This document shows, one piece after another, positions 7,412 through 36,625 of a DNA stretch of 64,000 nucleotides. The stretch is taken from NCBI GenBank assembly GCA_900313615.1, contig OMRP01000004.1, positions 92,808 to 156,807 on the forward strand, read 5' to 3'. Made by a program: the position numbers and the translations under genes. The notes under the pieces were generated by a model that was given only the letters and a program-made list of their open reading frames with translations, was not told where the DNA came from and ran no database searches. Within the stretch, counting starts at the first letter, position 1. Every line of letters starts with the position of its first letter. The DNA comes from an uncultured Prevotellaceae bacterium. Its GTDB lineage: Bacteria > Bacteroidota > Bacteroidia > Bacteroidales > Bacteroidaceae.

Positions 7412-7433
7412 CATCATCATCCACTAAAAACTC

Positions 7434-8249: not shown

Positions 8250-8323
8250 TCTTCAGACTTTACTTTGTAAAAAGAAAGGGCATTGGCGACGGCGTCGCTT
8301 CCATAATGTCACTTTCGCAAATC

Positions 8324-8350
8324 AAGGCTCACCTTCGGGTGGGCTTTTTT
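8324..8350 (+). terminator. rho-independent terminator
   Basis: Stem aaggctcacc with ggtgggcttt around a TTCG tetraloop, followed by a T run (8345-8350). One G-U wobble pair. It ends the 7434 transcript. Confidence 0.9.
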
Positions 8351-8420
8351 GCGCATATTAAAAATATGTCAATGTGTCGAAAAAAATATGTCCATCTGCT
8401 CAATTATCGGAAATAATGTT

Positions 8421-8428
8421 TATTTTTG
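8421..8428 (+). promoter_or_regulatory. -7 box of the men operon
   Basis: TATTTTTG, 22 nt before the menI ATG. No TTTG lies 19-21 nt upstream. It supports starting menI at 8451 rather than at the longer open frame. Confidence 0.5.
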
Positions 8429-8450
8429 CATTGGTTTTAACCATAATACT

Positions 8451-8873
8451 ATGGACGTAGAAAAAATCAGGGAAATTATCAACCGACAACCCAACCTGTC
8501 CACCGCCTTGGGTATGGAGTTTATCTCCACGCCCGACGATGACATGTGCATGGCCACTATGAAGGTCGACGAGCGTAACCGTCAGCCCTTCGGCTTTCTC
8601 AGCGGAGGAGCGTCTTTGGCTTTGGCCGAGAACTTGGCAGGAGTGGGTTCTTCGTCACTCTGTCCAGGGAAGATATGCGTCGGCATCAATGTCAGTGGCT
8701 CACACGTCAAGGCCGTGGCTGAAGGTGACACCGTGACAGCGTTGGCACGTCTTGTGCAGAAAGGAAAGACGCTTCATGTGTGGAATGTGGAGATTACCGA
8801 CAGTAAGGGACGTACCATCTCTGTGGTCAGCGTAACCAATTATATCATTTCTCCTAAAAAAGAATCACGATGA
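8451..8873 (+). CDS. menI: hotdog-fold thioesterase, probable 1,4-dihydroxy-2-naphthoyl-CoA hydrolase
   Basis: A 140-residue single-domain hotdog protein. The active-site segment RQPFGFLSGGASLALAE matches the YdiI/MenI type, with the conserved catalytic Glu in LAE; Ser replaces the His usually found before GGAS. MenI releases CoA from dihydroxynaphthoyl-CoA, the product of MenB. The function rests on fold and context: its stop overlaps the menF start by 4 nt (ATGA) and menD and menB follow. The frame extends upstream to 8349, but 8451 fits both the family length and the -7 box. Confidence 0.8.
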   Translation: MDVEKIREIINRQPNLSTALGMEFISTPDDDMCMATMKVDERNRQPFGFLSGGASLALAENLAGVGSSSLCPGKICVGINVSGSHVKAVAEGDTVTALARLVQKGKTLHVWNVEITDSKGRTISVVSVTNYIISPKKESR

Positions 8874-9961: not shown

Positions 9962-10020
9962 ATACCCACCAACACTCTCAAAGAAGGAAGCATCATCACT
10001 CATCACTCGTCACTAAATAA

Positions 10021-11769
10021 ATGTACTCCAACAAAGAAAACGTCAATATCCTCACTTCACTGCTCGTGGAACATGATGTGTATCAGGTCGTGGTATGTCC
10101 AGGTTCTCGAAATGCACCTATCGTGCATAACCTCAACGAGTGCCCCGATATTACCTGCTATCCCGTCACAGATGAGCGCAGCGCAGGATTCTTTGCCATC
10201 GGGTTGATACATGCCTCGCAGATGCCCGTGGCGGTATGTGTCACTTCGGGGTCGGCTATGCTTAATTTGGCACCGGCGGTTGCCGAAGCTAAATACCAAC
10301 AATTACCGTTGGTGGTCATCACGGCCGACAGGCCACAGGCTTGGGTTGACCAGCTCGATGGACAGACTATCCCGCAGCAGGGTGCTTTCGGCTCATTGGT
10401 GCGACGCTCGGTGTCGCTGCCCGAACCTCACGACGAGGAGAGTAGGTGGCTCTGCAATAGGTTGGCCAATGAGGTATTGCTCGAATTGTCTTTTTATAGC
10501 ACGGGACCTGTGCATGTCAATGTGCCCATCAGCGAACCGCTATTCGATTTTTCCGTTAGCCACCTGCCTAAGGAGCGAAGTATCGAGCGCCACTATTATC
10601 ATGAAATGAAGGATGTCCAGTTGGCGCGTGATTTCTTTGAGGCGGAACAACCGATGATTATTCTTGGACAGGAGTATTCGGAATGGGTAGAAGAAGATGA
10701 CGACGATGAATACCACGATGCAATGACATTCCTTGCCGACTATGGCGTGGTGCTCTCCGAGAGTTTGAATAATCATCTCGGCTATCATGTGCCAACAGAG
10801 AAAGCGCTCACCCTCATTGGCGATAACCCTGATTATATACCCGACTACATCCTCTATGTGGGGGGACATGTGGTGAGTAAACGGTTGAAGACTTTTTTGC
10901 GTAAGGCCGAAGGGGCCAAGGTCGTCATGGTCAATGAGGGAGAGGCCATCCACGACGTAACGATGCAGATGGACGAGTTGAAGGTGATGGGTACATACAA
11001 TGCTTTGGTCAACACATTGTATTTCTTTTACCACCATAACTATCTGAGTGTGCTCTTTCCGGATCTGCCGAAAGAACGACAAACGGAAAAACTGTTCCAC
11101 GAGAACCCTGGCCATGTGGCTTTCCACGACCGATGGCAGCAGGTGCTTAACCATGCCGAACAGATGACCGACGACTACGAACCTCCCTATTCGCAGATGG
11201 CTGCCGTTCGCTACTTTGAACAGCAACTCTGTGATATGGATTATGATTTCCATGTCCACTACGGCAACAGCAGTGCAATACGTCTGGCTAATATTTATTC
11301 GGAACATCATGTGTGGTGCAATCGTGGTGTCAACGGTATCGAGGGTTCGCTCTCCACGGCAGTGGGCCATGCCGCCCACATGTGGGAAAAAGGGCTCGAC
11401 GATAAAGTGTTCTGCGTACTTGGCGACCTGAGTTTCTTCTATGACGAAAACGCATTGTGGAATGTCAATTTGTCGGGCAACCTACGCATCATGGTACTCA
11501 ACAATGGTGGTGGCGGCATCTTCCAAACTTTGCCAGGGCTGCAGCAGAGTCCGGCATGTGAAACGATGGTAGCAGCCTGCCACAATACGTCAGCACGGGG
11601 TATTTGCACGCAGTGCGACATCGGTTATCTGAAAGCAACCAATATGCAGGAGATGCAGGAAGGTATCGTTTTGCTGCTTACCGAAGAAACCACACGACCA
11701 ATGCTCCTCGAGGTGTTCACCGATGCCACCACCGACAATCAAGCTCTCCAGGCATTCTTTGAAAAGTAA
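10021..11769 (+). CDS. menD: 2-succinyl-5-enolpyruvyl-6-hydroxy-3-cyclohexene-1-carboxylate synthase
   Basis: ThDP-dependent condensation of isochorismate with 2-oxoglutarate. The 582-residue length is typical. The N-terminal Pyr domain has CPGSRNAP and SGSAMLNLAPAVAEA; the C-terminal PP domain has the ThDP/Mg motif starting GDLSFFYDENALWN and ending in NNGGGGIF. It sits between menF and menB on the same strand. No SHCHC synthase (menH) is seen next to it or elsewhere in the window. Confidence 0.95.
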   Translation: MYSNKENVNILTSLLVEHDVYQVVVCPGSRNAPIVHNLNECPDITCYPVTDERSAGFFAIGLIHASQMPVAVCVTSGSAMLNLAPAVAEAKYQQLPLVVITADRPQAWVDQLDGQTIPQQGAFGSLVRRSVSLPEPHDEESRWLCNRLANEVLLELSFYSTGPVHVNVPISEPLFDFSVSHLPKERSIERHYYHEMKDVQLARDFFEAEQPMIILGQEYSEWVEEDDDDEYHDAMTFLADYGVVLSESLNNHLGYHVPTEKALTLIGDNPDYIPDYILYVGGHVVSKRLKTFLRKAEGAKVVMVNEGEAIHDVTMQMDELKVMGTYNALVNTLYFFYHHNYLSVLFPDLPKERQTEKLFHENPGHVAFHDRWQQVLNHAEQMTDDYEPPYSQMAAVRYFEQQLCDMDYDFHVHYGNSSAIRLANIYSEHHVWCNRGVNGIEGSLSTAVGHAAHMWEKGLDDKVFCVLGDLSFFYDENALWNVNLSGNLRIMVLNNGGGGIFQTLPGLQQSPACETMVAACHNTSARGICTQCDIGYLKATNMQEMQEGIVLLLTEETTRPMLLEVFTDATTDNQALQAFFEK

Positions 11770-11815
11770 AAAGATAATCAAATTAATTCATAATTAATCC
11801 TCAACATCAACACCC

Positions 11816-12631
11816 ATGCGAACTTGGAAAAAAATCATGGATTTCGAAGAAATCCTTTTCGAAGAATTTGAAGGAATAGCAAAAATCACCATCAACCGAC
11901 CACGTTACCGCAACGCTTTCACCCCCAAGACAACGCTCGAGCTGTCACAAGCCTTCGCTTATTGTCGTGAGGCGGCTCGTCTGCGCGTGGTATTGCTCAC
12001 TGGAGCTGGCGACAAGGCTTTTTGTTCGGGTGGCGACATGCATGTGAAAGGACGTGGTGGGTATATCGATGACGAGGGTGTGCCACGGCTAAGTGTTCTC
12101 GATGTGCAGATGCAGATACGACGTTTGCCCAAACCTGTCATCGCGATGGTCAACGGCTTTGCCATCGGCGGTGGGCATGTGTTGCACTTGGTGTGCGACC
12201 TAACCATCGCTTCTGAGAATGCCATCTTCGGACAGACGGGTCCCAAGGTAGGGTCGTTTGATGCTGGTTTCGGCTCATCGTACCTCGCGCGTATCGTTGG
12301 ACAGAAAAAGGCCCGTGAGATATGGTTCCTCTGCCGTCAATATACAGCACAGGAGGCGGAACGCATGGGCATGGTGAACAAAGTGGTGCCGTTTGAACGT
12401 CTAGAAGACGAGTGCGTGGAGTGGGCCAAGGTGATGATGGAGCGCTCGCCTATTGCATTGCGCATGATCAAGGCGGGTCTCAATGCCGAACTCGACGGAC
12501 AGGCGGGTATCCAGCAACTGGCAGGTGATGCCACCATGCTCTATTATTTCCTCGACGAGGCACAGGAAGGTGGAAAGGCTTTCTTGGAAAAACGAAAGCC
12601 CGACTTCGACCAATATCCTAATATTCCATAA
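11816..12631 (+). CDS. menB: 1,4-dihydroxy-2-naphthoyl-CoA synthase
   Basis: Crotonase-superfamily ring closure of O-succinylbenzoyl-CoA. The 271-residue protein starts MRTWKKI, agreeing with the usual MenB N-terminus, so the first ATG was kept. Oxyanion-hole and active-site segments are present: [43 protein letters not shown]. It is the last gene of the first men block; a long inverted repeat follows. Confidence 0.95.
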
Positions 12632-12640
12632 GGCTTTCTG

Positions 12641-12716
12641 ACAAAAAGAAATGGATGGCCACCATGATTTACCGCCCTAAAGCGTAACCCCATGGATGCC
12701 ATCCATTTCTTTTTGT
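12641..12716. terminator. bidirectional terminator: 19-bp perfect inverted repeat
   Basis: The arm acaaaaagaaatggatggc (12641-12659) is the exact reverse complement of 12698-12716. The A-rich outer end of each arm gives a T run on either strand, so the structure can stop both menB (plus) and the FMN-binding gene (minus), which converge here. Confidence 0.85.
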
Positions 12717-12728
12717 ATGTCCTTCTCC

Positions 12729-13124
12729 TTACTTATGTTTCTGGTAGTAGTCCAGACCGCGCTTGACATTTTCGATAACGGCGTTCGACGACATCGTAGC
12801 GCCAGTCACAGCGTCCACCTTGGCGCTCTTGGCAGCTTTTACGGTCATGCCGTTCCAACGTGGCAGCAATTGTTTTTTCACCTTGGCGAAATAACGGGGA
12901 GTCTCTTGGTTCTTCAAGGCCTCAATCTTTTCTATCTTGCCCTTGCTGATGTATATCTTCAGCGGTGTGGGACCATTGTAACCTTCCACGCTTTGTGCCA
13001 AAGTGGTGGTGTTTACCACGGTGAACGCGCCTTCCTTGCTAATAACGCCATTGCCAGGCATGGAACTCATCAGCAGCATTGTTACAGCGCATACAGCCGT
13101 GATAATGAATAATTTCGTTTTCAT
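12729..13124 (-). CDS. FMN-binding domain protein, exported
   Basis: A 131-residue protein with an N-terminal signal peptide (KLFIITAVCAVTMLLMSS) and an FMN_bind domain. The key motif is DAVTGATMSS (about residues 102-111), matching the consensus in which Thr of (S/T)GA(S/T) carries phosphoester-linked FMN in RnfG and NqrC. Probably an extracytoplasmic electron carrier, though a flavin-transferase substrate role is inferred only from the motif. Monocistronic or followed only by the shared terminator. Confidence 0.85.
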   Translation of the reverse strand: MKTKLFIITAVCAVTMLLMSSMPGNGVISKEGAFTVVNTTTLAQSVEGYNGPTPLKIYISKGKIEKIEALKNQETPRYFAKVKKQLLPRWNGMTVKAAKSAKVDAVTGATMSSNAVIENVKRGLDYYQKHK

Positions 13125-13181
13125 AATTGTGTAGTGTTTGTTAATGTTTAGTGTTAAGTGTTTTGAGTGTTGAGTATTTCA

Positions 13182-14081
13182 TCAAACCAGTTTTCCGATG
13201 AGGTTTTCACGCTCGCCGGGTAGCATGTCTATCACAGGCAGTTCAACCATTGTGTAGCAGCCGGGCTGTTGACGTAGCGAAGCACGAGCCACATTCACCA
13301 ATACCTGAGCCGTCAGGGCGGGATTGTTGATGCTCATGTTGAATTCAAAACGTTGGTTCTGCGTCTCACCGCTCACTCCTTTGCGCACCAAATGAACGCC
13401 ATGACCCATGTCGCGCACAGCGTCCACGGATTCTACGGCAAAGACATGGGTTTCATCATGCGCGAAATAGGGGTCGGCCTTGATGGCTGCAGTTACCGCA
13501 TCAAGTGAGGCACCATCCTCCAGTTCCACATACACCATACGGCGGTGGATACCCTCTCCCAAGGGAATGGTCATCGATAGTGCGTTCTTCACACCTTCCT
13601 TGGAGCGCACGCATACCGAATGTCCCATCGACATGCCTGGACCGAAATTGGTGTACGACAGTCCTTTGGGTGCCAGACTCTCCATCAATGTGCGCACAAT
13701 GCTGTCCGATCCAGGATCCCAGCCAGCGGCAATCACGGCTACTCGACCATATTCCTTACAGATGGGCATGAGTGTGGCGCGATAGTCCACAATGTTGGTG
13801 TGTATGTCGAAACTGTCCACCGTGTTGATGCCTAGCGGCAAGATTTTCTTGGCATATTCTTCGCATGAACGGGTGGGGGTGGCCAGGATGGCCACATCTA
13901 CATCTTTCAGTTCGCGAATATCACTCACCACCTCGTAGGGCTCCAACTCTTTGGGCTTGTTCTCGCCTCCTTTGCGGCGCACTACGCCTGCTATTTCAAA
14001 GTCTGGAGCGGCCTCTAAGGCCTGGATGGTGTAATGTCCGATGTTGCCGTAACCAACGACGGCGGCTCTGATTTTTTTCAT
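13182..14081 (-). CDS. ddh: meso-diaminopimelate D-dehydrogenase
   Basis: NADPH-dependent one-step conversion of tetrahydrodipicolinate plus ammonia to meso-diaminopimelate, for lysine and peptidoglycan. The 299 residues start with a Rossmann loop (VVGYGNIGHY) and contain VDSFDIHTNI, AAGWDPGSDSIVR, NFGPGMSMGHS and HETHVFAVE, all typical of Ddh. It has a clean promoter at 14134-14165. Confidence 0.95.
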   Translation of the reverse strand: MKKIRAAVVGYGNIGHYTIQALEAAPDFEIAGVVRRKGGENKPKELEPYEVVSDIRELKDVDVAILATPTRSCEEYAKKILPLGINTVDSFDIHTNIVDYRATLMPICKEYGRVAVIAAGWDPGSDSIVRTLMESLAPKGLSYTNFGPGMSMGHSVCVRSKEGVKNALSMTIPLGEGIHRRMVYVELEDGASLDAVTAAIKADPYFAHDETHVFAVESVDAVRDMGHGVHLVRKGVSGETQNQRFEFNMSINNPALTAQVLVNVARASLRQQPGCYTMVELPVIDMLPGERENLIGKLV

Positions 14082-26418: not shown

Positions 26419-26443
26419 CATAGCATTTTTGTGAGTCTCTTTT

Positions 26444-26467
26444 CCCCTCCTTCTTCCAAAGGAGGGG
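26444..26467. terminator. GC-rich hairpin after menE
   Basis: Arms cccctcctt (26444-26452) and aaggagggg (26459-26467) around a 6-nt loop. A T run is lacking on the plus strand. It marks the change from core to accessory sequence. Confidence 0.55.
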
Positions 26468-26523
26468 GCTGGGGTGGTTTGTCAAACAATGTTTGCTAAG
26501 AGAAACAAATATAATTCAAGCTG

Positions 26524-26557
26524 TTTGAACGATTCTCAGATAAATTCATTAAATTTG
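26524..26557 (+). promoter_or_regulatory. possible promoter of the Fic gene
   Basis: TTTG (26524-26527), a 22-nt spacer (one longer than usual), TAAATTTG (26550-26557), 48 nt before the ATG. Confidence 0.45.
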
Positions 26558-26605
26558 CACCAAGTAATATGATGGTGTATGGCAAACCCATAAATATGGA
26601 ATAAT

Positions 26606-27631
26606 ATGTATAAACCGCCATTTTCAATAACAGACCATATACTTGATTTGGTATCGAAGATATCAGAGCAAATAGGTGTTCTTAATACGAGCATCGGTGA
26701 TGATGCTCCTTCACCTCTGCTGCGTAAGAAGAACCGCATCAAGACCATCCACTCGTCGCTGGCTATTGAAAACAATACACTGTCATTGAAGCAGGTGACA
26801 GACATTATTGATGGCAAGCATGTGTTGGGTGCTCCTGATGAGATTCAAGAGGTGAAGAATGCAGTTGCGGCTTATCGTCTAATGTCACAGTTGGATGCCT
26901 TCAAAGAGAAAGACTTGTTGACGGCTCATGGACTGATGATGAAAGACCTGGTGCGCCATGCCGGACATTATAGACAGGATGGAGTCGGTGTGTTCGATGG
27001 TAATGGAAATTGCCTGCACATGGCTCCACCAGCTGCTCGTGTACCGGAACTGATGGGTGACTTGTTCCAATGGGTCAAGACCACCAATGTTCATCCGCTT
27101 ATCCATTCATGTGTTTTTCACTATGAATTTGAGTTCATTCACCCCTTTATCGACGGTAATGGCCGTATGGGACGTTATTGGCAAACCATGTTGCTTGCAC
27201 GATGGAAGGGCATCTTTTCTTGGCTCCCTGTTGAGACCATCGTAAAAGAGCATCAGCAGGACTATTACAATGCCATAGCGAAGTCTGACGCAGCAGGAGA
27301 AAGTACGGCTTTCATTGAGTTTATGCTTCACTGTCTTTTGGATACTATGGAGTATTATGAAGATGAAGAGAATACAATAGTGCAGGATATAGTACAGGAT
27401 AAAGTGCAGAATAAAGTTCGGAATAATTTTCCCGAGGTTTCTCAACCAACATGGGATGTATTTGCCATTATCAGTAAAAATCCCCATGCTACAGTGAACA
27501 CAATTTGTTCACAATTGAGGTTGAAAGAAAGACAGATATATAAGCATATATCCATGCTCAAACAGGTTGGCCTCATTGTCCGCGTAGGCAGCAACAAAAC
27601 AGGGTATTGGAAGGTAACGATTGATGATTGA
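26606..27631 (+). CDS. Fic-domain protein with N-terminal inhibitory helix and C-terminal winged helix
   Basis: A 341-residue Fic protein that probably transfers AMP to a target hydroxyl. The active loop HPFIDGNGRMGR is intact (about residues 178-189). An inhibitory motif (S/T)xxxE(G/N) appears as SLAIEN (about 52-57), placing it with self-inhibited class II Fic proteins. A coiled segment (TIVQDIVQDKVQNKVRNNF, about 257-275) leads to a winged-helix domain (TVNTICSQLRLKERQIYKHI), suggesting DNA binding or autoregulation. No separate antitoxin gene is adjacent. It opens the accessory region. Confidence 0.9.
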   Translation: MYKPPFSITDHILDLVSKISEQIGVLNTSIGDDAPSPLLRKKNRIKTIHSSLAIENNTLSLKQVTDIIDGKHVLGAPDEIQEVKNAVAAYRLMSQLDAFKEKDLLTAHGLMMKDLVRHAGHYRQDGVGVFDGNGNCLHMAPPAARVPELMGDLFQWVKTTNVHPLIHSCVFHYEFEFIHPFIDGNGRMGRYWQTMLLARWKGIFSWLPVETIVKEHQQDYYNAIAKSDAAGESTAFIEFMLHCLLDTMEYYEDEENTIVQDIVQDKVQNKVRNNFPEVSQPTWDVFAIISKNPHATVNTICSQLRLKERQIYKHISMLKQVGLIVRVGSNKTGYWKVTIDD

Positions 27632-27669
27632 ACCTTTCTTCGCCATTACTCAGACATTTATCCATCACT

Positions 27670-27705
27670 TGTACCACGATATGGGACAATCTGAGTGTAT
27701 CTTTG
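27670..27705 (+). promoter_or_regulatory. palindromic operator and -7 box of the HD-WYL operon
   Basis: TGTACCACGATATGGGACA (27670-27688) is an imperfect inverted repeat (7-bp arms TGTACCA and TGGGACA, 5-nt spacer, one mismatch). It lies 9 nt upstream of TATCTTTG (27698-27705), where a -33 TTTG would be expected and is absent. The same element at the same spacing precedes the HIRAN gene (29203-29238). I infer that the WYL protein binds it. Confidence 0.65.
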
Positions 27706-27798
27706 TATCCAGAAAAAGATGATGGAAATGAATACTTGTGCTGAATTTTAATTCATACTATGTGTATCATCCGTCTATTCAAACATAATAATGTTGTT

Positions 27799-28218
27799 AT
27801 GATTACCATTGAAAATGCCTTGCGCCTGGCAATTGAGGCGCACGAGGGTCAGACAGACCTAGATGGGAAGCCGGTCATTCTCCATCCCATGACAGTGGGA
27901 TTGGCGGGTCGTAACCGTGAGGAGATTATTGCTGGATTGTTGCATGATGTGGTGGAAGATACGGACTTTACTTTTGACGACTTGCTTGCCCGTGGCGTTG
28001 AAGAGCCTATCGTAGAAGCGCTGCGGCTGCTGACACATACAGACGATATGTCCTACGAGGATTATGTGAAACGTATTGCGGCATCTGGCAACAGTATTGC
28101 CATTCATGTGAAGTACAACGACCTACAGCATAACCTGAAACGTGGTCGTGCCGGCGGTCACTGGAAGCAGGTGACAAAACATGAAGGGGCTTTACCCATT
28201 ATTGAGCCACTTATATAA
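27799..28218 (+). CDS. small HD-domain hydrolase related to RelA/SpoT hydrolase domains
   Basis: A 139-residue stand-alone HD domain. Motifs: HEGQTDLDGKPVILHP (first metal His), GLLHDVVEDTDFTFDDL (HD metal pair plus EDT) and VKYNDLQHNL (last metal Asp). This is the SpoT/MESH hydrolase type, so a nucleotide phosphohydrolase acting on ppGpp or a similar signal is plausible; no synthetase domain is present. Start taken at 27799 because the frame from 27760 adds 13 unrelated residues. The stop lies 14 nt before the WYL regulator, and the pair shares the palindromic operator promoter. Confidence 0.8.
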   Translation: MITIENALRLAIEAHEGQTDLDGKPVILHPMTVGLAGRNREEIIAGLLHDVVEDTDFTFDDLLARGVEEPIVEALRLLTHTDDMSYEDYVKRIAASGNSIAIHVKYNDLQHNLKRGRAGGHWKQVTKHEGALPIIEPLI

Positions 28219-28232
28219 AAAGTGTTTAGCCT

Positions 28233-29180
28233 ATGAAAATCCCCATTCTATTCAAGGAATATATCTGGTTGATTGAGACCATCAACCGGGCCGGGAAAAT
28301 TACTTTCGCTGAAATCAACGAACGATGGAAAAGAAAGGAGGAAAGTGGTGGCTTGAAGTTCTCACGCACCACTTTCAACCGTCATCGTGATGCTATATTC
28401 GATATGTTTGGTGTCATTATTGAATGTGATAAGAAAGATGGATACCGCTACTACATTTATAACAAGGAGGTGCTGGAGGAAGACAGCGTGCAGAACTGGT
28501 TGTTCTCAACGCTCAGCGTGAGTAATATGCTTGATGAGAACGTGGGCTTGCATCACCGTATACTTTTAGAAAGCATCCCCTCTGGTGATATTCATCTGCA
28601 ACAGATTATCAAGGCGATGCGTGAAAGCCGTAAGATTATGGTGACTTATCGCCGCTATGGTGCGGCATCTGCTAACTCGTTCTCCGTAGCCCCGTATTGT
28701 GTGAAACTGTTCCGCCGCAGGTGGTATGTGTTGGTTTCGATGGTCAGACATTCATCTAATAATGGTGAGGAGAAATTTGCCATCTTCTCCCTTGACCGTA
28801 TAGAGAATGCGGAACTGCAACAGACAAAATTTACCCTAAAACCGGATTTCGACGCTGCTGACTTTTTCGATGAGTGTTTCGGCGTGGTAGCGGGTGACGG
28901 TAGCAATCCTGAGCGTATCGTATTACGAGCATACGGACTGGAGCCTCATTATTTGCGTGATTTGCCATTGCATCATTCTCAAAGAGAAATAAATGTGACA
29001 GATGAATACACCGATTTTGAACTATATTTGCGACCAACAGCTGATTTCAAAGGACATATCTTGTCAAGGGGCGATTTAGTACAAGTACTTTCTCCCCAAC
29101 ATGTGGCAGATGACATACAACAATGGCTTCAGGCTGCAATGAATAGGTATAAAAAGCCCCAAAAGCAAAATAATCAATAG
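28233..29180 (+). CDS. WYL-domain transcriptional regulator
   Basis: A 315-residue DNA-binding regulator. Residues 1-75 form a helix-turn-helix region (FAEINERWKRKEE, FSRTTFNRHRDAIFDMF). A WYL domain follows at about 125-200 (RKIMVTYRRYG, SVAPYCVKLFRRRWYVLVSM), then a WCX-like C-terminal extension (RIVLRAYGLEPHYLRDLPLH). WYL repressors such as BrxR and CapW control antiphage operons by binding palindromes and are thought to release on sensing a nucleic acid or nucleotide ligand. Here two matching palindromes flank the gene, one before its own operon and one before the HIRAN operon. Confidence 0.85.
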   Translation: MKIPILFKEYIWLIETINRAGKITFAEINERWKRKEESGGLKFSRTTFNRHRDAIFDMFGVIIECDKKDGYRYYIYNKEVLEEDSVQNWLFSTLSVSNMLDENVGLHHRILLESIPSGDIHLQQIIKAMRESRKIMVTYRRYGAASANSFSVAPYCVKLFRRRWYVLVSMVRHSSNNGEEKFAIFSLDRIENAELQQTKFTLKPDFDAADFFDECFGVVAGDGSNPERIVLRAYGLEPHYLRDLPLHHSQREINVTDEYTDFELYLRPTADFKGHILSRGDLVQVLSPQHVADDIQQWLQAAMNRYKKPQKQNNQ

Positions 29181-29202
29181 AATAATTCATTTTTCTCGAT
29201 GC

Positions 29203-29238
29203 TGTACCACAATATGGTGCAACATGCCGCTAACTTTG
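29203..29238 (+). promoter_or_regulatory. palindromic operator and -7 box of the HIRAN-Sel1-DUF262 operon
   Basis: TGTACCACAATATGGTGCA (29203-29221), arms TGTACCA and TGGTGCA with one mismatch, then TAACTTTG (29231-29238). Palindrome start to the end of the -7 box is 36 nt, identical to 27670-27705, while the DNA between is unrelated, which argues for selection on the palindrome. Confidence 0.65.
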
Positions 29239-29278
29239 CTTCCGTAAACAAGAAGTTTAACTAAAAGCATTCAAGATT

Positions 29279-29635
29279 ATGGAAACTAAGAAGAAATTTT
29301 ACATGGATTGCCACTTGGCTGGTCGTAAGTTTCATGATGCTGACGAGGTGTGGGATAAGTTGAAGGTGGGAACAGTGCTCCGCCTGGAACGTGAACTCGA
29401 TAACCGCTATGACCCAGAGGCCGTGGCGGTCATCTACGATGACAAGGAGATGGACGACTCATTCCGCATAGGGTACATACCCCGTGTGGACAACGAAACC
29501 ATCGCTGGTATTCTTGAAATGGGATGGACGGATATGTTTGAGTGTCGCATCAGCAAAATTAATCCTGACGCACACCCCGAATATCAGGTACACCTGACCA
29601 TCAAGATTGTAAGACGTAATGTTGAAGCCAACTAA
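29279..29635 (+). CDS. HIRAN-domain protein
   Basis: A 118-residue stand-alone HIRAN domain: CHLAGRKFHDADE, a LERELDNRYDPEAVAVIYDD core and IGYIPRVDN. HIRAN domains bind DNA, often 3' ends or damaged and stalled structures, and are usually fused to SNF2 helicases or nucleases. Here the domain is alone and opens a same-strand operon with the Sel1 and DUF262 genes. I infer a DNA-sensing role within that module. Start follows the operator promoter by about 41 nt. Confidence 0.85.
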   Translation: METKKKFYMDCHLAGRKFHDADEVWDKLKVGTVLRLERELDNRYDPEAVAVIYDDKEMDDSFRIGYIPRVDNETIAGILEMGWTDMFECRISKINPDAHPEYQVHLTIKIVRRNVEAN

Positions 29636-29646
29636 TACCATTCAAT

Positions 29647-30432
29647 ATGCCGCAACAACAAACGAATATTCTGAACATTGGCAGGGGAAGAACCATCAGG
29701 ATACCTGTCAACTACCAACATTTCATCCTCAGTTATTTCTCCAATCCTGAGGATTGTGGATGGGAACGTGAAGATGTAATACACATCCTGGAGTGTGTCA
29801 AGGAAGACCGTTTAGAGGAGTTGGATATGGATGCCGACCTGATGAATAGCATCGGCACGTTCTTCGAGGATGGCATTTGCGTGAAACGTGACATCAATGC
29901 CGCCGTCTTTTGGTATGAGCAGGCAGTCGAGTGGGGCAACAATTTGGCACGGAGCAATCTGGCTGACATCCTCCGCAAGGGAAGTCAGGGCTTTCCCAAA
30001 GATTTGCGTCGTGCCTTCGAACTCTACAAGGCATGTGGCCTGCCATATGCCCATTACCGCGTCGGCGAGTTCTACGAACACGGTTGGGGCGTTCGCCAGG
30101 ACCTTGAAGCTGCCAAGGCATACTATCGTCAGGCTTATCGTGAAGGTCACGGATTAGCTGACAAGAAACTGAAAGAATGGAACTTTTTGGAAGATTCCTC
30201 TAAGAATGTTCTTTGTACAAAGACAAATGAGATGCCAGATAACAACGCAAAAAACACCAAGTATGAAGTAAGATGCCATGAATGGGGTGATGGTGGCGAC
30301 TTCCATTGGTGTTACTGCGATACAAAGGAGGAAGCCGAGGCGACTGTCAAAGGTTTCTATGCGAATGACCCATCCAATTGCTATGAACATCTGTATTTTC
30401 ATGAGATTAATGAAGAAGGAACGTTTACATAA
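29647..30432 (+). CDS. Sel1-repeat protein with a C-terminal domain of unknown function
   Basis: A 261-residue protein. Residues about 65-175 hold Sel1-like repeats (SIGTFFEDGICVKRDINAAV, RVGEFYEHGWGVRQDLEAAK), a helical scaffold for protein-protein contacts. The C-terminal 60 residues (KYEVRCHEWGDGGDFHWCYC, then YEHLYFHEINEEG) form a separate small domain I do not recognise. No signal peptide, so cytoplasmic. It starts 11 nt after the HIRAN gene and is probably translated from the same message. Confidence 0.8.
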   Translation: MPQQQTNILNIGRGRTIRIPVNYQHFILSYFSNPEDCGWEREDVIHILECVKEDRLEELDMDADLMNSIGTFFEDGICVKRDINAAVFWYEQAVEWGNNLARSNLADILRKGSQGFPKDLRRAFELYKACGLPYAHYRVGEFYEHGWGVRQDLEAAKAYYRQAYREGHGLADKKLKEWNFLEDSSKNVLCTKTNEMPDNNAKNTKYEVRCHEWGDGGDFHWCYCDTKEEAEATVKGFYANDPSNCYEHLYFHEINEEGTFT

Positions 30433-30494
30433 CAAAGAAACGGACGAGGAACTGTTCGATTGGGATAATATGAAATAAACTAAAATAAAATAAA

Positions 30495-32015
30495 ATGGAT
30501 AATTTGACATTATCATTAACAACAATTGGGGATTTATTGTTGAAAAATAGAATCACCAGAAAAGAAAATGGTAAACCTATCGATAACGTTAAGCTTACCA
30601 TTCCTGAGTATCAGCGTCCCTACAAATGGACTGCACGTAATGCCATACAATTACTTGATGATATTCTTGAAGCGAGAAACGGCAACAAGGAGGTATATCG
30701 AGTTGGTACACTTATTTTGCACAAGACCAAAAACGACAATGGGCAAGATGTATACGAGATTGTGGATGGGCAACAAAGAACTATAACATTTTCTCTATTA
30801 CTTACCGCATTGTACGAACTTGAAAATGATCAAGAGAAAAGACCCGTGATTGATTTCCTGCACCAACAGGTATTTGACAATCAGTTTAGTCGCCATAATA
30901 TTCCCAACAATTTGAATGCATTCAGACGTAGAACATACAAGAACACAGAAGGCGATAAAAGTGTTGAGCATAACCTGGACATGAAATCCTTGCGTATTTT
31001 CATAGAACAGCAATGTGAACTGATTGTTGTAATTACTGATGATGTATCAGAAGCCTTCCAGTTTTTTGACTCTCAGAATGCCAGAGGTAAGGCTTTGTAT
31101 CCTCATGACCTGCTGAAAGCATACCATCTGCGTGAGATGGCAGACATTGACGAAGCTAAAACGGAGCAAATAGTCAAAGAATGGGAAAAAATTCCACAAC
31201 AGGATTTGGCTGCTTTCTTTGGCGACTATTTGTATCGCATCAAAGAATGGATTAACGGGAATTGGGCATATAAACTGAACGAGCATAACATCTTCAAGTT
31301 TAAAGGCATTACAAAAAAAGCCAACACGCCTTATGCTCAGTTTTTCAAGAGTGCATACTCGTACGCAGAGTTTATTAATTCCTCTGCCATGCCTTTCGTG
31401 TCGGGTACAAGAGAGGTGAATGCTTTTCAGTTAAACACTCCAATTATTGCGGGCAAGCCATTCTTTGACTATACGAAACATTACTACGAAATCCTTAAAG
31501 ACATTCAAGATAATAGTAAATATGAGGGTTTCTACATAAAAGGCAATAAGATTGTAGATACTTTGGACAAATACTTCAATAAAGGTGTTGGAAATAGAAT
31601 AACCCGATTGCTTTTTGATACTGCATTGTTGCTGTATGTAGATCGTTTCTGTCCTGCGACATATCCCACCAAGGTGGATACAGGACTGTTTGAGCAGTTT
31701 GTGGCATTTGCATTTATATGGGCTTACTCACTCCGCGCTCAGTACTCTCATTTGGGTTGGCAATCTGCACAAAACTATGTGCTTGAAAGAAATGACATCG
31801 TCAACTCTCTCAACATCTATAAACTTATAGCCGACTCCGATACACCAATTTCATTGTTGAGTACGTTAGCAGACAAGCTGAATCCTCTATCAAGAAAAGA
31901 CATATTTGACAGGGTTTATAAGGATGTGGACGACCAAAAATTAGATGATCATGAAGGTGAATTGTTTAAATATTATCTCCACTTTTTTAAGATTAATCAC
32001 TTTTATAACAAATAG
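30495..32015 (+). CDS. DUF262 (GmrS-like) protein without nuclease domain
   Basis: A 506-residue protein with an N-terminal DUF262/ParB-like NTPase domain: IPEYQRPYKWTARNAIQLLD (about residues 36-55) and the EIVDGQQR signature (about 88-95). GmrSD-type enzymes use this domain to hydrolyse nucleotide and license cleavage of modified phage DNA. The C-terminal half is helical and shows no HNH/DUF1524 motif, so it looks like a sensor or regulatory subunit. Its stop is 5 nt before the next DUF262 gene. Confidence 0.85.
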   Translation: MDNLTLSLTTIGDLLLKNRITRKENGKPIDNVKLTIPEYQRPYKWTARNAIQLLDDILEARNGNKEVYRVGTLILHKTKNDNGQDVYEIVDGQQRTITFSLLLTALYELENDQEKRPVIDFLHQQVFDNQFSRHNIPNNLNAFRRRTYKNTEGDKSVEHNLDMKSLRIFIEQQCELIVVITDDVSEAFQFFDSQNARGKALYPHDLLKAYHLREMADIDEAKTEQIVKEWEKIPQQDLAAFFGDYLYRIKEWINGNWAYKLNEHNIFKFKGITKKANTPYAQFFKSAYSYAEFINSSAMPFVSGTREVNAFQLNTPIIAGKPFFDYTKHYYEILKDIQDNSKYEGFYIKGNKIVDTLDKYFNKGVGNRITRLLFDTALLLYVDRFCPATYPTKVDTGLFEQFVAFAFIWAYSLRAQYSHLGWQSAQNYVLERNDIVNSLNIYKLIADSDTPISLLSTLADKLNPLSRKDIFDRVYKDVDDQKLDDHEGELFKYYLHFFKINHFYNK

Positions 32016-32020
32016 GCGAT

Positions 32021-34078
32021 ATGGAAAAGACAACATTTCCACTTGAAGAGCGTTCAATATACCAGATTTATCTGGAAAGTCAGGAAACAAAAACATATGT
32101 AATTCCTATATATCAACGTAACTATGCTTGGGAAGAAGATGAGATTAACGCATTGATTAAAGATGTTTATGATTCTTTTGCCAAGAACAAGAATGATTAC
32201 TATTACATAGGTACATTGGTGACCTATAAACGTGGGGATAGTGTTTATGAGGTAATAGACGGTCAGCAGAGATTAACTACTATTTATATTATCCTAAAAG
32301 TATTTGGCATTAAGGAAATCCGAAATAGATTAACCTATGGAGCCAGAAAAAAATCTGCTTTAACGATTGTCAAATTGAATGATTACCCCAATTTAGGTGA
32401 TGAAGTAGATGGTGGAATCAGGAATGGCTATAACTATGCGAAAAAGGCATTTGATGCTATTGTAGAAGAATCCGAGCGAGAAGAGTTCACCAAGTATTTC
32501 CTTGACAAAGTACATATTATCCACTATAAAGTTCCTAAAGATGTTGATCTGAATCACTACTTTGAGGTGATGAATTCTCGTGGTGAGCAGTTGGAGAAGC
32601 ACGAAATTGTAAAGTCATTGCTTGGACAACATCTTAACAAGAAAGATTTGGCTACTTTCAGCCGAGTTTGGGAGGCATGTAGTGAAATGAATGTATACGT
32701 ACAACAAGCTTTTCCCGAAGCAAGGGTTTTTGGTTCGCATCTTCACAAATTCATTATTAATTCTTTTGAGGATATTCCCGAACAAGATGAATCGGACGGG
32801 AAATCTACCATTATTGACCTCCTCCAGCAGCCAATCTGCGAATTGGAAGATTTCTCTACTATTGAGCAGAATGATAAGTTCCAACCAATTATAGACTTCC
32901 CGAACTTCTTGCTTATAGCTCTGAAAGTAACCATGATGAAGTATGAAGGCTTTGAGCCTGTAAAGTTCACTCTTGATGATAAGGAATTACTCAATGAGTT
33001 TAATAAAGCATTACAATTTGTGGATGACAAAGTTGAATTCGTGAAGGACTTTGCTTTAAATCTATTGAAGGCGAAGTTCTTGCTTGACAACAATATTGTC
33101 CACCATTCACTTGGTGATAAAGAACAATTGGGAGACAATCCATGGAAATTGCAGTTCTTTTATCTTGAAAATGCAAAAAAGAGATACCCCAAAAATATAA
33201 CAGACAACCAAGACATACAGAAAGAACTGGTTCACTTGCTCTCGATGTTTGAAGTGTCATTTACTCCCAAACAACGCAAGAACTATCTTTTCTACTCCAT
33301 GTTATTTCTATTTGGTAACAATGAGCATAATGAACAGGATTATTTGAAATTCCTACAGTGCCTTGCTGATAAATATTTCTATGATGTATATCTTAATTCG
33401 GAATGTCTTAACGAAAGGAAACAGCCTGGGCCAAATGCATTCGATAACGCTTTGTTTGTAGATAGAGTAATGAATGTAGATGATATCGGTAACGATGAGA
33501 TTGACTATAGAGTGAAATTTGAGGACATCTACAAACAAGGAAGGGCAGATGTACCATTGTTTGTGTTTAATTATACAGACTATAAACTTTGGAAAAAGTA
33601 TGCTGATGAATTACGTGGTAATAAGACAAAGAAAGGGTCTAAAGAACGAAGCCAATTCTTTGAGGAACTTGGATGTACGGATTTTGAACTTGAACCGTTC
33701 AACAACTTTTATTTCTCTCGAACTCGCAAGTCTTTGGAACATTATTACCCACAAGCTAAGGCAGGTGAGGGAAAACCTTTAAGTTCTGACGATATCAACT
33801 GCTTTGGAAATTTTGCGATGATTGGTGCTGAAGCGAATAGTTCTGGTTCCAACTGGGATCCAAGAACAAAGCTTGACCACTACAGCGACGGCAAAGCTGA
33901 CCAAGTAAGTGTTGCTTCTCTGAAATTCAAGATTATGATGCAAAAGTGTAAAGACAATGACTTGGCAATTCTTAACGGATTATTAGACGAGAGAGAGGCA
34001 CACATGGAATGGGATGCAGGAGATATTCAGGAACATCAGAAAAAGATGTTGGATATAATCATACAAAGAAAGAATTAA
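32021..34078 (+). CDS. DUF262-DUF1524 protein, GmrSD-like type IV restriction nuclease candidate
   Basis: A 685-residue fusion. The N-terminus has the DUF262 motifs IPIYQRNYAWEEDE (about residues 28-41) and VIDGQQRLTT (about 78-87). The C-terminal fifth carries a DUF1524-like HNH region: EHYYPQ (about 571-576) and GNFAMIGAEANSSGSNW (about 597-613), matching the family pattern HxxP then GNL then N-S-N. In GmrSD and SspE relatives this nuclease cuts DNA with modified bases or backbone. The partner DUF262 protein immediately upstream makes this a two-subunit arrangement. AT-rich codon use differs from the core genes. Confidence 0.85.
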   Translation: MEKTTFPLEERSIYQIYLESQETKTYVIPIYQRNYAWEEDEINALIKDVYDSFAKNKNDYYYIGTLVTYKRGDSVYEVIDGQQRLTTIYIILKVFGIKEIRNRLTYGARKKSALTIVKLNDYPNLGDEVDGGIRNGYNYAKKAFDAIVEESEREEFTKYFLDKVHIIHYKVPKDVDLNHYFEVMNSRGEQLEKHEIVKSLLGQHLNKKDLATFSRVWEACSEMNVYVQQAFPEARVFGSHLHKFIINSFEDIPEQDESDGKSTIIDLLQQPICELEDFSTIEQNDKFQPIIDFPNFLLIALKVTMMKYEGFEPVKFTLDDKELLNEFNKALQFVDDKVEFVKDFALNLLKAKFLLDNNIVHHSLGDKEQLGDNPWKLQFFYLENAKKRYPKNITDNQDIQKELVHLLSMFEVSFTPKQRKNYLFYSMLFLFGNNEHNEQDYLKFLQCLADKYFYDVYLNSECLNERKQPGPNAFDNALFVDRVMNVDDIGNDEIDYRVKFEDIYKQGRADVPLFVFNYTDYKLWKKYADELRGNKTKKGSKERSQFFEELGCTDFELEPFNNFYFSRTRKSLEHYYPQAKAGEGKPLSSDDINCFGNFAMIGAEANSSGSNWDPRTKLDHYSDGKADQVSVASLKFKIMMQKCKDNDLAILNGLLDEREAHMEWDAGDIQEHQKKMLDIIIQRKN

Positions 34079-34091
34079 TACTTACACAGAA

Positions 34092-34178
34092 ATGGCAAGA
34101 CATAATAGACTACCAAAAGACTATAGGCCATCTATTGAGGATGCAGAATGTTTTGTCAATCTGGTCATCGAACAATGA
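34092..34178 (+). CDS. 28-residue ORF translationally coupled to the next gene
   Basis: ATG at 34092 reads MARHNRLPKDYRPSIEDAEC followed by FVNLVIEQ, and its TGA overlaps the ATG at 34175 (ATGA). The start is 14 nt after the DUF262-DUF1524 stop. It has a basic then acidic composition. It may be a real small protein, a leader that couples translation, or the head of a frameshifted gene; the sequence alone does not decide. Confidence 0.4.
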   Translation: MARHNRLPKDYRPSIEDAECFVNLVIEQ

Positions 34179-34474
34179 ACTCAGAAGTTAACTACACGAA
34201 GCTCTGGGAGATGATCTCTCGTTGTCAATGGACGTTTGCCAAAACGATGCCGTGGGCACCCCACGAGTATATTGTGCGAGGCAAATGTCTCTTGACAGAA
34301 GAGGAGTTTTTGTATTTCATCGACATGCAACGTCGTTTCGGCGTAAAGGAACACTGGGGAAAGTATTACCATCCCTATCTTTATATCGATGATTATAAAT
34401 ATTGGACAATGGGAGCACCGTATGAGGATACCATTATCATAAATCGAGCAAAGGTAGATGTCCCTCTTTCATGA
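34175..34474 (+). CDS. small protein of unknown function in the DUF262 operon
   Basis: A 99-residue cytoplasmic protein from the ATG at 34175, preferred over 34148 because of the ATGA overlap with the preceding 28-residue ORF. It is rich in aromatic residues (ISRCQWTFAKTMPWAPHEYI, DDYKYWTMGAPYEDTIIINR). I recognise it only as similar in character to small Bacteroidetes hypothetical proteins. It lies last in the operon that begins with HIRAN, so a role with the DUF262 pair is possible. Confidence 0.65.
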   Translation: MNSEVNYTKLWEMISRCQWTFAKTMPWAPHEYIVRGKCLLTEEEFLYFIDMQRRFGVKEHWGKYYHPYLYIDDYKYWTMGAPYEDTIIINRAKVDVPLS

Positions 34475-34602
34475 TTTGTTTTGCCATTTTTCGGCTAAGT
34501 TACAAAAAATGTAAGAAATAATGGTAAATCATATTTTTCCTTCATTTTATTGTTCTTTTAAAAATTATAACTGTCTTTGCACTATCAAGTTACATGTTAA
34601 AG

Positions 34603-34638
34603 GGTTCGAATTCATATAGTACCTGAACCTTTTTAAAC
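34603..34638 (+). repeat. 36-bp direct repeat, left copy
   Basis: ggttcgaattcatata, one variable base, then tacctgaacctttttaaac. Matches 35083-35118 with one mismatch. Internally it holds a GGTTC/GAACC hairpin followed by TTTTT, so it may also act as a terminator. 34475-34602 shows nothing else. Confidence 0.8.
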
Positions 34639-34639
34639 G

Positions 34640-34744
34640 GAAATCAACGGCCTGGCCGACATAGCGGGAGAATACTACGGAGACAAGTCGGCGCAGGGAG
34701 TGCTCGACGAGCTGGACAGGCTGACGATAGTGAAGAAGGGGTGA
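34640..34744 (+). pseudogene. GC-rich C-terminal remnant of a foreign gene
   Basis: Beginning 2 bp after the left 36-bp repeat, an open frame of 34 codons reads EINGLADIAGEYYGDKSAQG and continues to LTIVKKG with a TGA at 34744. Base composition is far richer in G and C than its surroundings and there is no start codon or upstream sequence of the same kind, so it looks like the tail of a gene truncated at the repeat. Parent gene not identified. Confidence 0.4.
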
Positions 34745-34797
34745 AAGATTAATTCATGGTAGGTGGCCCACCACCATCTATTACGGCATAAAAAGCA

Positions 34798-34989
34798 TTA
34801 CCATCCCCCAAGATTGTAATCATCATTGGAATCTGTGTCGTTTCCCCATTTACACAAGACGCGCACAAAGAAATATATAAGGATGCAGAACAATACCAAC
34901 TTGAACAGCCAAGTATCGAAGAATGCCACTCCGTAAATGATACTTAGCACTACCAATAACGCTATGAATATGATCTTGATAACTTTCAT
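34798..34989 (-). CDS. 63-residue membrane protein with two transmembrane segments
   Basis: ATG at 34989 gives MKVIKIIFIALLVVLSIIYG and a second hydrophobic stretch (LFKLVLFCILIYFFVRVL), then a hydrophilic acidic tail (GNDTDSNDDYNLGGW). A -7 box TATATTTG lies at 35020-35013 with CTTG 20 nt upstream in place of TTTG, so it is probably expressed. It is the only gene inside the segment flanked by the 36-bp direct repeats. Function unknown. Confidence 0.6.
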   Translation of the reverse strand: MKVIKIIFIALLVVLSIIYGVAFFDTWLFKLVLFCILIYFFVRVLCKWGNDTDSNDDYNLGGW

Positions 34990-35082
34990 AATGTTGGTAT
35001 TTAATTTCGATGCAAATATATAGATTATTCCAGTTCGTGTCAAGGGGGAAATCCCTAAAAGATCAAGGAAAGAACCTACGGA

Positions 35083-35118
35083 GGTTCGAATTCATATAAT
35101 ACCTGAACCTTTTTAAAC
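35083..35118 (+). repeat. 36-bp direct repeat, right copy
   Basis: Same orientation as 34603-34638, offset exactly 480 bp, one mismatch (a for g at 35099). A small hairpin (gaacct 35072-35077, aggttc 35082-35087) abuts its left side. Confidence 0.8.
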
Positions 35119-35148
35119 TAACGCCAATTATTATTTAGAAAAATACAT

Positions 35149-35156
35149 TATCTTTG
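35149..35156 (+). promoter_or_regulatory. -7 box of the 35176 gene
   Basis: TATCTTTG, 20 nt before the ATG; no TTTG at -33. Confidence 0.4.
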
Positions 35157-35175
35157 TAATAAAATTTAATGCGAA

Positions 35176-35403
35176 ATGGAAACGATATTTGACGCAAAGA
35201 TAACAAAAAAGGAGTTTGCCATTTTATTCAAAGATGCCAAACGACTTACATATGATAACTATTTGTCAATGTGTAGAGTGGAGTCTCATAGGAAATATCA
35301 CCTTGCAATGTTAATGTTTTTGCGAGGTAATGAAAAAGATGGGAAGAGATACCTTAAAGAGAGCAATGTTCCGATTGGGATGGATGTGGATTGGGCTGGA
35401 TAA
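35176..35403 (+). CDS. small hypothetical protein
   Basis: A 75-residue, highly charged cytoplasmic protein (METIFDAKITKKEFAILF, ending GMDVDWAG) with a -7 box just upstream. The central part (ESHRKYHLAMLMFLRGNEKD) is helical. No family recognised. It follows the right 36-bp repeat, and 35404-35572 after it holds no recognisable feature before aroB. Confidence 0.5.
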   Translation: METIFDAKITKKEFAILFKDAKRLTYDNYLSMCRVESHRKYHLAMLMFLRGNEKDGKRYLKESNVPIGMDVDWAG

Positions 35404-35572
35404 TTAAAACCATATTCCCCAAATCCATCCCATAGAGTTATATATCCTTCAAATGTGAACATCATCTTTTGGCATATAAGCCTAATAATGAATTAACTCG
35501 GCCGAAAGAGCCCGAAAGCCACTAACTCCTGCTAATCATAAACTTCAAACTTCCAACTTCAATCTTCCGACC

Positions 35573-36625
35573 TCATTGCCCTTCCCTGAAAAAGTCCATC
35601 GCTTCCTCAATCTCTTCTTTCGTGGCACTCTGGTTGATGCGGATGTCGCCGATATTGCCTAAGAGTGTGAAATTGATGCGACCTCCCTCGTTTTTCTTGT
35701 CGTGCGTCATCAACTCCAAGAGGGTGGGATAGTCGTTGCAAGTGATGGGCAAAGTGCCATAGTAGTCGCCAATGAAACGGGAGGCTTGGCGTAGCAGCGA
35801 TGTGGGGAAGCCGCATTTTGCCACGCTGAGGTATAACTCCACCACCAGACCGAAGGCTACGGCGTAACCATGAAGGATAGGAGTCTTGCGCTGCATGGAC
35901 CACGACTCGAAAGCGTGGCCAATGGTGTGGCCGAGGTTGAGGGCCTTGCGGATACCTCGCTCCAAGGGATCGGCTTCCACGATGTCGGCCTTGACGGCCA
36001 CGGAACGGCCAATCATCTGCTGCAACTGTTCCATGTCGGGTGACTCCAACGGGAAAGTAATCAGTTCCTGCCACATGGCGGGAGTGCTCAACAATCCATG
36101 CTTGAGCATCTCGGTATAGCCACTGCGGATGTTCTCCGTATCGAGAGTCTTGAGGAAACGGGTGCTGAGCAACACCCGGTGGGCATCGCGAAATACACCC
36201 ACCTCGTTCTTCAAACCGTTGAAATTCACACCAGTCTTGCCACCCACCGAAGCGTCGACCATCGACAGCAATGTGGTAGGGATGTTGATGAAGGGGATAC
36301 CACGCTTGAAGGTGGCAGCAGCGAAACCACCAAGGTCGGTCACCATGCCACCACCGAGGTTGACGAGGCACGAATGGCGCGACGCACCGCCACGGCTCAA
36401 TGCACTCCACACTTCACTGAGCGATGCCACATCCTTATGGTCGTCGGTAGCGCCGATGGTGATACATTGCGCTTCGGCCATGCATGGCCAAGTCTGGATG
36501 AGAGGGAGACAGGCTTCCCTTGTATTGTCGTCGGTGAGCACAAACAATTTGTCGGGCTGGATGTCGGTAATGGCCTGTTGCAGGTCTTGTTCCAGTTGCT
36601 GTGTGATGATGACGTTCTCTAACAT
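35573..36625 (-). CDS. aroB: 3-dehydroquinate synthase
   Basis: Second step of the shikimate pathway, NAD- and zinc-dependent. The ATG at 36625 gives 350 residues; the longer open frame starting at a TTG at 36667 overlaps the -7 box (TACCTTTG, 36672-36665) and was rejected. Motifs: DDNTREACLP, VNLGGGMVTDLGGFAAATFK, PTTLLSMVDASVGGKTGVN (NAD and substrate loop) and LNLGHTIGHAFE (zinc His). Marks the return to core sequence after the accessory region. Confidence 0.95.
   Translation of the reverse strand: MLENVIITQQLEQDLQQAITDIQPDKLFVLTDDNTREACLPLIQTWPCMAEAQCITIGATDDHKDVASLSEVWSALSRGGASRHSCLVNLGGGMVTDLGGFAAATFKRGIPFINIPTTLLSMVDASVGGKTGVNFNGLKNEVGVFRDAHRVLLSTRFLKTLDTENIRSGYTEMLKHGLLSTPAMWQELITFPLESPDMEQLQQMIGRSVAVKADIVEADPLERGIRKALNLGHTIGHAFESWSMQRKTPILHGYAVAFGLVVELYLSVAKCGFPTSLLRQASRFIGDYYGTLPITCNDYPTLLELMTHDKKNEGGRINFTLLGNIGDIRINQSATKEEIEEAMDFFREGQ

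Follow-up and report, generated by a model that had tools for sequence, protein, structure and literature searches.

A defence island of an uncultured Prevotellaceae bacterium, probably built of a WYL–HIRAN core with exchangeable cargo

The window analysed here is a stretch of 64,000 nucleotides from an uncultured Prevotellaceae bacterium (assembly GCA_900313615.1, contig OMRP01000004.1, positions 92,808 to 156,807). It contains a block of genes for an HD hydrolase, a WYL regulator, a HIRAN protein, a Sel1-repeat protein, two DUF262 proteins and a small protein referred to as sm108. The block is best read as a defence island: WYL and HIRAN form its core, HD and sm108 are frequent companions, and exchangeable cargo occupies two slots. 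The probability of this reading is put at roughly 60%. Slot 1 is then empty in the window, while slot 2 holds the Sel1 gene and a TgvAB-like DUF262 pair. This is a real and informative defence locus, as a preliminary description of the same DNA had supposed, but it was mis-described there as one fixed system. What is new is the little-described WYL–HIRAN frame with its exchangeable cargo and its link to sm108; the effector is of a known kind. The genes and slots of the block are as follows.

27799..28218, plus strand: stand-alone HD hydrolase, RelA/SpoT hydrolase-like, frame gene (HD_4 1.1e-5, spoT_relA 1.3e-12; reading frame opens at 27760)
28219..28232, plus strand: slot 1, 14 bp in the window (placed from blastn breakpoints and PADLOC)
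28233..29180, plus strand: WYL-WCX transcriptional regulator, 315 aa, frame gene (WYL 1.9e-11, WCX 4.8e-7)
29279..29635, plus strand: stand-alone HIRAN protein, 118 aa, frame gene (Pfam HIRAN 1.7e-12)
29647..30432, plus strand: Sel1-repeat protein, 261 aa, cargo of slot 2 (Sel1 5.6e-19; about 80 aa at the C-terminus lie beyond the repeats)
30495..32015, plus strand: TgvA-like DUF262-DUF7834 protein, 506 aa, cargo of slot 2 (no nuclease domain found)
32021..34078, plus strand: TgvB-like DUF262-DUF1524 protein, predicted nuclease, 685 aa, cargo of slot 2
34175..34474, plus strand: sm108, small protein with an unnamed domain, frame gene (reading frame opens at 34148)

The evidence for exchange comes from two relatives at the same site, L095 and L096 (Prevotella sp., water buffalo omasum and abomasum), whose islands lie between the same genes as in the window. 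Protein identity to the window in L095 and L096, respectively, is 90 and 90% for HD, 90 and 92% for WYL, 95 and 93% for HIRAN, and 82 and 84% for sm108. In blastn comparisons HD, WYL-HIRAN, sm108 and the flanks align at 77–85% nucleotide identity, whereas the cargo is unaligned, except for the 120-nt sm108-like end of an 840-aa gene of L095 (71%). Both relatives keep HIRAN, and both lack Sel1 and the window's pair. Their cargo stands between HD and WYL (slot 1): about 4.4 kb in L095, encoding a 580-aa DUF262-DUF1524 protein and then an 840-aa DUF262 protein that ends in an sm108 domain, and about 6.3 kb in L096, a nearly full-length ZacABC system (PADLOC E-values 1.3e-75, 1.4e-130 and 6.3e-259). 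The window's cargo lies between HIRAN and sm108 (slot 2). Base composition differs as well: cargo has 36–40% GC, with Sel1 at 46.8%; the frame genes of the three genomes have 40–50%, and aroB has 52–54%. Identities of frame and cargo are discordant also beyond this comparison: the WYL protein of L133 is only 39% identical to that of the window but its TgvA-like protein 81%, and L095, with a WYL identity of 90%, has no close TgvAB-like pair. Shared flanks with differing cargo recur at further sites (L113/L129/L130/L131; L139/L141/L146; L138/L143; L157/L159).

Every named open reading frame of the window is present, intact and on the plus strand, as first described. Pfam scores are 44 bits for WYL, 30 for WCX, 47 for HIRAN and 68 for Sel1, and both DUF262 proteins match GmrSD_N, at 111 and 118 bits. 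Slightly below the curated Pfam cut-offs lie HD_4 (25.7 bits against 27.2) and, in the second DUF262 protein, GmrSD_C/DUF1524 (20.5 against 23). In the first DUF262 protein, DUF7834 (195 bits) takes the place of the nuclease domain of the second, which upholds the earlier view that only the second is a nuclease. The WYL protein combines WYL and WCX domains and lies next to defence genes, as BrxR/CapW-like regulators do; it presumably also has an N-terminal helix-turn-helix, for which there was no domain match. The block had further been called AT-richer; this comes mainly from the DUF262 pair (37.7 and 36.5% GC), with HD, WYL, HIRAN and sm108 at 43–50%, menE at 52.6% and aroB at 54.2%.

The block is part of a larger insertion, to which the following features also belong.

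about 26419..35572, no strand: whole island, between convergent menE and aroB (edges taken from empty menE/aroB sites)
26606..27631, plus strand: Fic-family protein, 341 aa, probably the island's first gene (Pfam Fic 4.9e-20; 43.4% GC)
34603..34638 and 35083..35118, no strand: direct repeats of 36 nt, 97% identical and 480 bp apart, around an 81-aa minus-strand reading frame (stretch 34603..35118)

The site was examined in 20 same-genus aroB neighbourhoods, fetched from among 93 genomes with an aroB match. By tblastn positions, menE directly adjoins aroB in seven of them (L176, L177, L181, L182, L185, L186 and L190; reading frames viewed for L176, L182 and L190). These empty neighbourhoods identify the gap as an insertion site and place the island at about 26419–35572. 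One neighbourhood (L175, taken as the same contig as L095) carries the HD/WYL/HIRAN/sm108 island; another, L187, has a different island in the gap (5260–13768), with antitoxin-like, TPR-like and ATPase-like genes by sequence reading; and in 11, menE was not seen near aroB within the stretch fetched. The edges first proposed, 27799..34474, were thus too narrow, since the Fic gene and about 1.1 kb downstream of sm108 belong to the island. Upstream of the block lie menC, menE and the Fic gene; downstream lie the 81-aa minus-strand frame, a 75-aa frame, aroB and a gene for a TonB-type protein. Apart from Fic, these flanking names come from reading the sequence, with no family search. The Fic gene is present in L095 and absent from L096, and neither of them has the stretch 34603–35118 between sm108 and aroB. 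Cargo swapping driven by an integrase was considered and rejected: a Pfam scan of ten island reading frames revealed no integrase, and the 36-nt pair, the only long near-identical repeat within 27600–35700, lies outside the cargo boundaries. L070 (9579–9917) and L071 (5937–6275), from two genomes that belong to a single other genus, have a stand-alone HIRAN gene of a more distant kind right next to aroB, with a TonB-like gene beyond it.

How far the frame extends was assessed by a census, in which named genomes, mostly titled Prevotella, Prevotellaceae or other Bacteroidales, were scanned with a HIRAN alignment and the best 80 of 89 confirmed HIRAN loci were then searched locally. WYL occurs in 63 of these 80 loci, and in 46 it lies at most 1 kb upstream on the same strand. 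The accompanying genes are diverse: any DUF262 (23 loci), sm108 (21), Sel1 (12), a third DUF262 family (10), the TgvAB-like pair (6) and an L095-like pair (5), together with clusters of McrC (6), ADP-ribosylglycohydrolase (6), Sir2-like (4) and radical-SAM-like proteins (4). The McrC and ADP-ribosylglycohydrolase clusters were named from the Pfam result of one member each, the Sir2-like and radical-SAM-like ones by sequence reading. Individual loci hold type I-C Cas3c and Cas8c (L173) or a type I methyltransferase (L136), and in L130 and L131 WYL, HIRAN and an ADP-ribosylglycohydrolase share one locus. Among viral contigs, HIRAN gave 22 pattern matches, of which none was confirmed.

sm108, which the preliminary description had listed only as a small protein, is the most telling gene of the block. 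Searches of Pfam, PADLOC, NCBIfam and PHROGs gave no match for it, and no solved relative is convincing (the best, at E 0.38, is a nanobody). A search not anchored on HIRAN (1e-10) detected it in six of 201 family genomes, including that of the window; five of the six copies, again including the window's, belong to HIRAN loci, and the remaining copy stands at the end of its contig, for a profile that was built from HIRAN-locus copies and may miss remoter relatives. Within the census, sm108 is present in 13 of the 23 DUF262 loci vs 8 of the 57 others (Fisher 2e-4). Four loci carry it as a fusion with the DUF262 partner that lacks the nuclease: in L167 and L172 (Segatella copri) it forms the N-terminus of the TgvA-like protein, and in L095 and L157 the C-terminus of the long DUF262 protein. 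These fusions suggest that sm108 may act as an adaptor for DUF262 proteins. Relatives also occur in 78 IMG/VR viral contigs (L197–L274); most of the 57 inspected are short (about 90–120 aa), and about eight precede a methyltransferase-like part (by reading; two tested in Pfam). Two queries against 50,697 records of named phages gave no match.

By architecture and motifs, the window's DUF262 pair looks like a type IV restriction enzyme of the two-protein TgvAB kind; the comparison is with the published architecture and motifs of the V. cholerae system. TgvAB, encoded on VPI-2 of V. cholerae, is an experimentally tested type IV restriction system (PMC11411939). Membership of this system would imply that both proteins are required and that phages carrying modified cytosine are restricted. 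Like the window pair, it consists, in the available parts of PMC11411939 and PMC12409362, of two adjacent genes, DUF262 alone and then DUF262-DUF1524, and has QR, DGQQR, FxxxN and His-Me residues. In the first window protein, Q40 R41, DGQQR (91–95) and FxxxN (F191, N195) are invariant in 10 of 10 aligned sequences; in the second, Q32 R33, DGQQR (80–84) and F181/N185 are invariant in 12 of 12. So are H574, N597 and N606 of the H...N...N His-Me motif, which supports the nuclease call despite the DUF1524 score below the cut-off. As far as these sources extend, the difference is one of setting: TgvAB lies inside a type I restriction-modification operon, and the window pair lies beside WYL-HIRAN with sm108 nearby.

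The first DUF262 gene has matches in 22 genomes, that of the window included, and 13 neighbourhoods of the others were fetched (L040–L048, L051 and L090–L092). In L040–L048 the second DUF262 gene is kept beside the first, and none of the nine has HD, WYL, HIRAN or Sel1 within the fetched flanks, which reach at most about 9 kb in either direction and are shorter at contig ends. The pair is for this reason a unit of its own, and its membership of a fixed HIRAN operon is contradicted. The first protein also has distant relatives on plasmids, all below 60% identity: they occur in 886 records, of which 851 are from Klebsiella. Locus L051 contains a remnant of 121 aa (9118–9483) that shares 91% identity, over 100 aa, with the beginning of the window's first DUF262 protein and lies among Sir2-like, ADP-ribosylglycohydrolase-like, HD and radical-SAM-like genes. 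On plasmid pACIB of Aliarcobacter cibarius (L195), a DUF262 pair stands between PD-(D/E)XK nuclease and UvrD helicase genes, with Sir2 upstream.

Several observations weigh against a frame with functional meaning. The two slots are deduced from three genomes at one site, and the order differs elsewhere, being HIRAN-cargo-WYL in L133 and L138. The small HD family is found in only seven of the 80 census loci by cluster, or eight counting an edge match in L158. No WYL match was obtained in 17 of the 80; of all 80 loci, 11 start less than 1 kb before HIRAN, and many are contigs of metagenome-assembled genomes that end early. WYL-HIRAN without evident cargo exists (L112, L114). A WYL relative (1e-25) is present in 103 of 201 family genomes, a HIRAN match (1e-5) in only 26, and the 11 loci fetched for WYL or WYL-DUF262 genes (L074, L085–L094) gave no HIRAN match; in three of these genomes (L090–L092), WYL is followed by a different, more distant DUF262 pair (proteins of 572–592 aa). 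TgvAB, too, is reported to work without such a frame in the available literature.

These points favour a serious rival, according to which the locus is a passive hotspot: WYL, HIRAN, HD and sm108 would merely be frequent residents whose shared genes offer homology for recombination, with coupling at most transcriptional. The nine pair-anchored loci without the frame, the WYL-HIRAN loci without cargo, the WYL relatives without HIRAN and the different island of L187 all agree with it. It accounts poorly for the fusion of sm108 to two kinds of DUF262 partner, for the near confinement of sm108 to HIRAN loci at the threshold used, for the WYL-HIRAN adjacency in 46 of 80 loci and for the strong enrichment of DUF262, and it is considered possible but unlikely. 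The enrichment is about 47-fold (22 DUF262 genes in HIRAN loci vs 0.47 expected in 34 genomes), in a test that ignores relatedness and gene pairing and takes its observed and background counts from different searches. The background is 79 PF03235 matches in 113.5 Mb and the HIRAN loci cover 0.68 Mb; 14 of the 34 loci contribute. The selection favoured loci with long flanks: 31 measure about 20.3 kb, and L097, L110 and L117 complete the set; the 31 alone hold 20 of 71 DUF262. As defence genes cluster generally, this enrichment is linkage, not coupling.

The interpretation first given is improbable. It takes the block as a single dedicated system of several subunits, with HIRAN and Sel1 recruiting the DUF262 pair and assembling it. 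All its genes are co-linear in the window, and HIRAN accompanies a TgvAB-like pair in six of the 80 loci. But the pair stands elsewhere without the other genes, L095 and L096 keep HIRAN with neither Sel1 nor the window's pair, and Sel1 and DUF262 occur together in none of the 80 other loci. Of the 13 census matches of Sel1, 11 lie within 500 bp of HIRAN, and none of the 12 Sel1 loci has a DUF262 gene (P about 0.012; 0.018 without L152, whose Sel1 match is weak and at the locus edge). A role of Sel1 as scaffold of the pair is thereby disfavoured. A Sel1-anchored family search was swamped by generic Sel1 repeats, and its two best foreign matches (G120, G026) were taken further. The C-terminal stretch of the window's Sel1 protein (30178–30432) also exists as separate proteins of 71–81 aa (L072, L073), which adjoin apparent housekeeping genes.

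What survives of the proposed linkage across genomes is the recurrent WYL-HIRAN adjacency and, in a few loci, the pair; the gene-neighbourhood comparison does not keep the set together as one unit. Nor does the absence of a named counterpart hold for the pair, given its match to TgvAB. Among the best 25 PADLOC matches, those to HEC-06, Orf5 and SspE are not of full length; their best stretches fall in the N-terminal half of the DUF262 proteins and cover no more than 204 of 506 aa for Orf5 and 123 of 685 aa for SspE. PDC-M03B models match part of this HIRAN family, and the 118-aa HIRAN covers only positions 128–227 of the 250-position model.

Least probable of all, and very unlikely, is that HIRAN serves as an antitoxin or guard that silences a toxic effector in the WYL operon: HIRAN proteins adjoining HipA have been proposed as antitoxins in the available part of PMC11706625, on which basis PDC-M03 probably pairs HIRAN with HipA, and the PDC-M03B matches fit this, but the Pfam scan of the window has no HipA, and the cargo seems too diverse to suit a single specific antitoxin.

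For the preferred reading, a core with exchangeable cargo, the following working can be proposed. WYL regulators are reported to bind single-stranded DNA and to control defence systems, and HIRAN is reported to bind 3' DNA ends. The WYL regulator would control the operon, and its state would change upon infection or DNA damage, probably through binding of single-stranded DNA or a nucleotide, as judged from other WYL regulators. HIRAN may bind 3' DNA ends that arise from phage replication or from the nuclease, and either report the damage to WYL or hold effectors at breaks. From the adjacency of the two genes one may suppose that a costly nuclease is controlled in response to damage or infection. 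The two DUF262 proteins might use their nucleoside triphosphate-binding domains to sense modified phage DNA, which the His-Me nuclease of the second would then cut; the motifs are seen, and the activity is assumed by analogy with TgvAB. sm108 probably attaches to the nuclease-less DUF262 partner, as the natural fusions suggest. The cargo differs while the frame stays, as the same-site comparison shows, and the exchange probably comes about by recombination in the shared frame genes.

A wider proposal, put forward only tentatively and doubtful at present, is that WYL-HIRAN-sm108 serves the immunity of Bacteroidales as a general unit for control and docking. HIRAN, as a DNA-end sensor, and WYL would arm any adjacent effector, and the sm108 adaptor would couple DUF262 sensors. 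The effectors under such control would include restriction of the TgvAB, GrwAB and McrBC types, Zac, type I-C CRISPR-Cas and ADP-ribose enzymes.

Known systems share parts of this arrangement. BrxR/CapW-type regulators likewise stand beside varied defence systems (PMC9122601); here WYL is tied to HIRAN, and the main text of that paper contains neither 'HIRAN' nor 'Bacteroid'. ARPP with HIRAN or WYL in two-gene neighbourhoods, and WYL-regulated ADP-ribosylglycohydrolase systems, are described in PMC9503650, and WYL, HIRAN and an ADP-ribosylglycohydrolase likewise come together in loci such as L130 and L131; adjacent WYL-HIRAN with swapped restriction cargo is not described in the available part of that source. 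GrwAB of V. cholerae WASA VSP-II has the order and architecture of the L095 pair, DUF262-DUF1524 and then a DUF262 protein with a long C-terminus (PMC12137116, PMC12409362, each in its available part). This likeness is found in the relative L095, not in the window, and the L095 C-terminus ends in an sm108 domain, which these texts do not mention for GrwAB. No WYL-HIRAN locus of this kind was found in the available parts of PMC11411939, PMC10952713, PMC9503650 and PMC11706625, or of PMC11090510, PMC12409362, PMC9122601 and PMC12137116.

The locus offers a direct view of an immune locus changing its weapons: the same site and the same frame carry three effector sets in three related genomes. With sm108 fused to it in four loci, there is a lead on the role of the nuclease-less DUF262 partner, a question posed for TgvAB (PMC11411939, available part). 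With WYL-HIRAN and sm108 as a tag, uncharacterised defence cargo can be sought in bacteria of the gut and the rumen.

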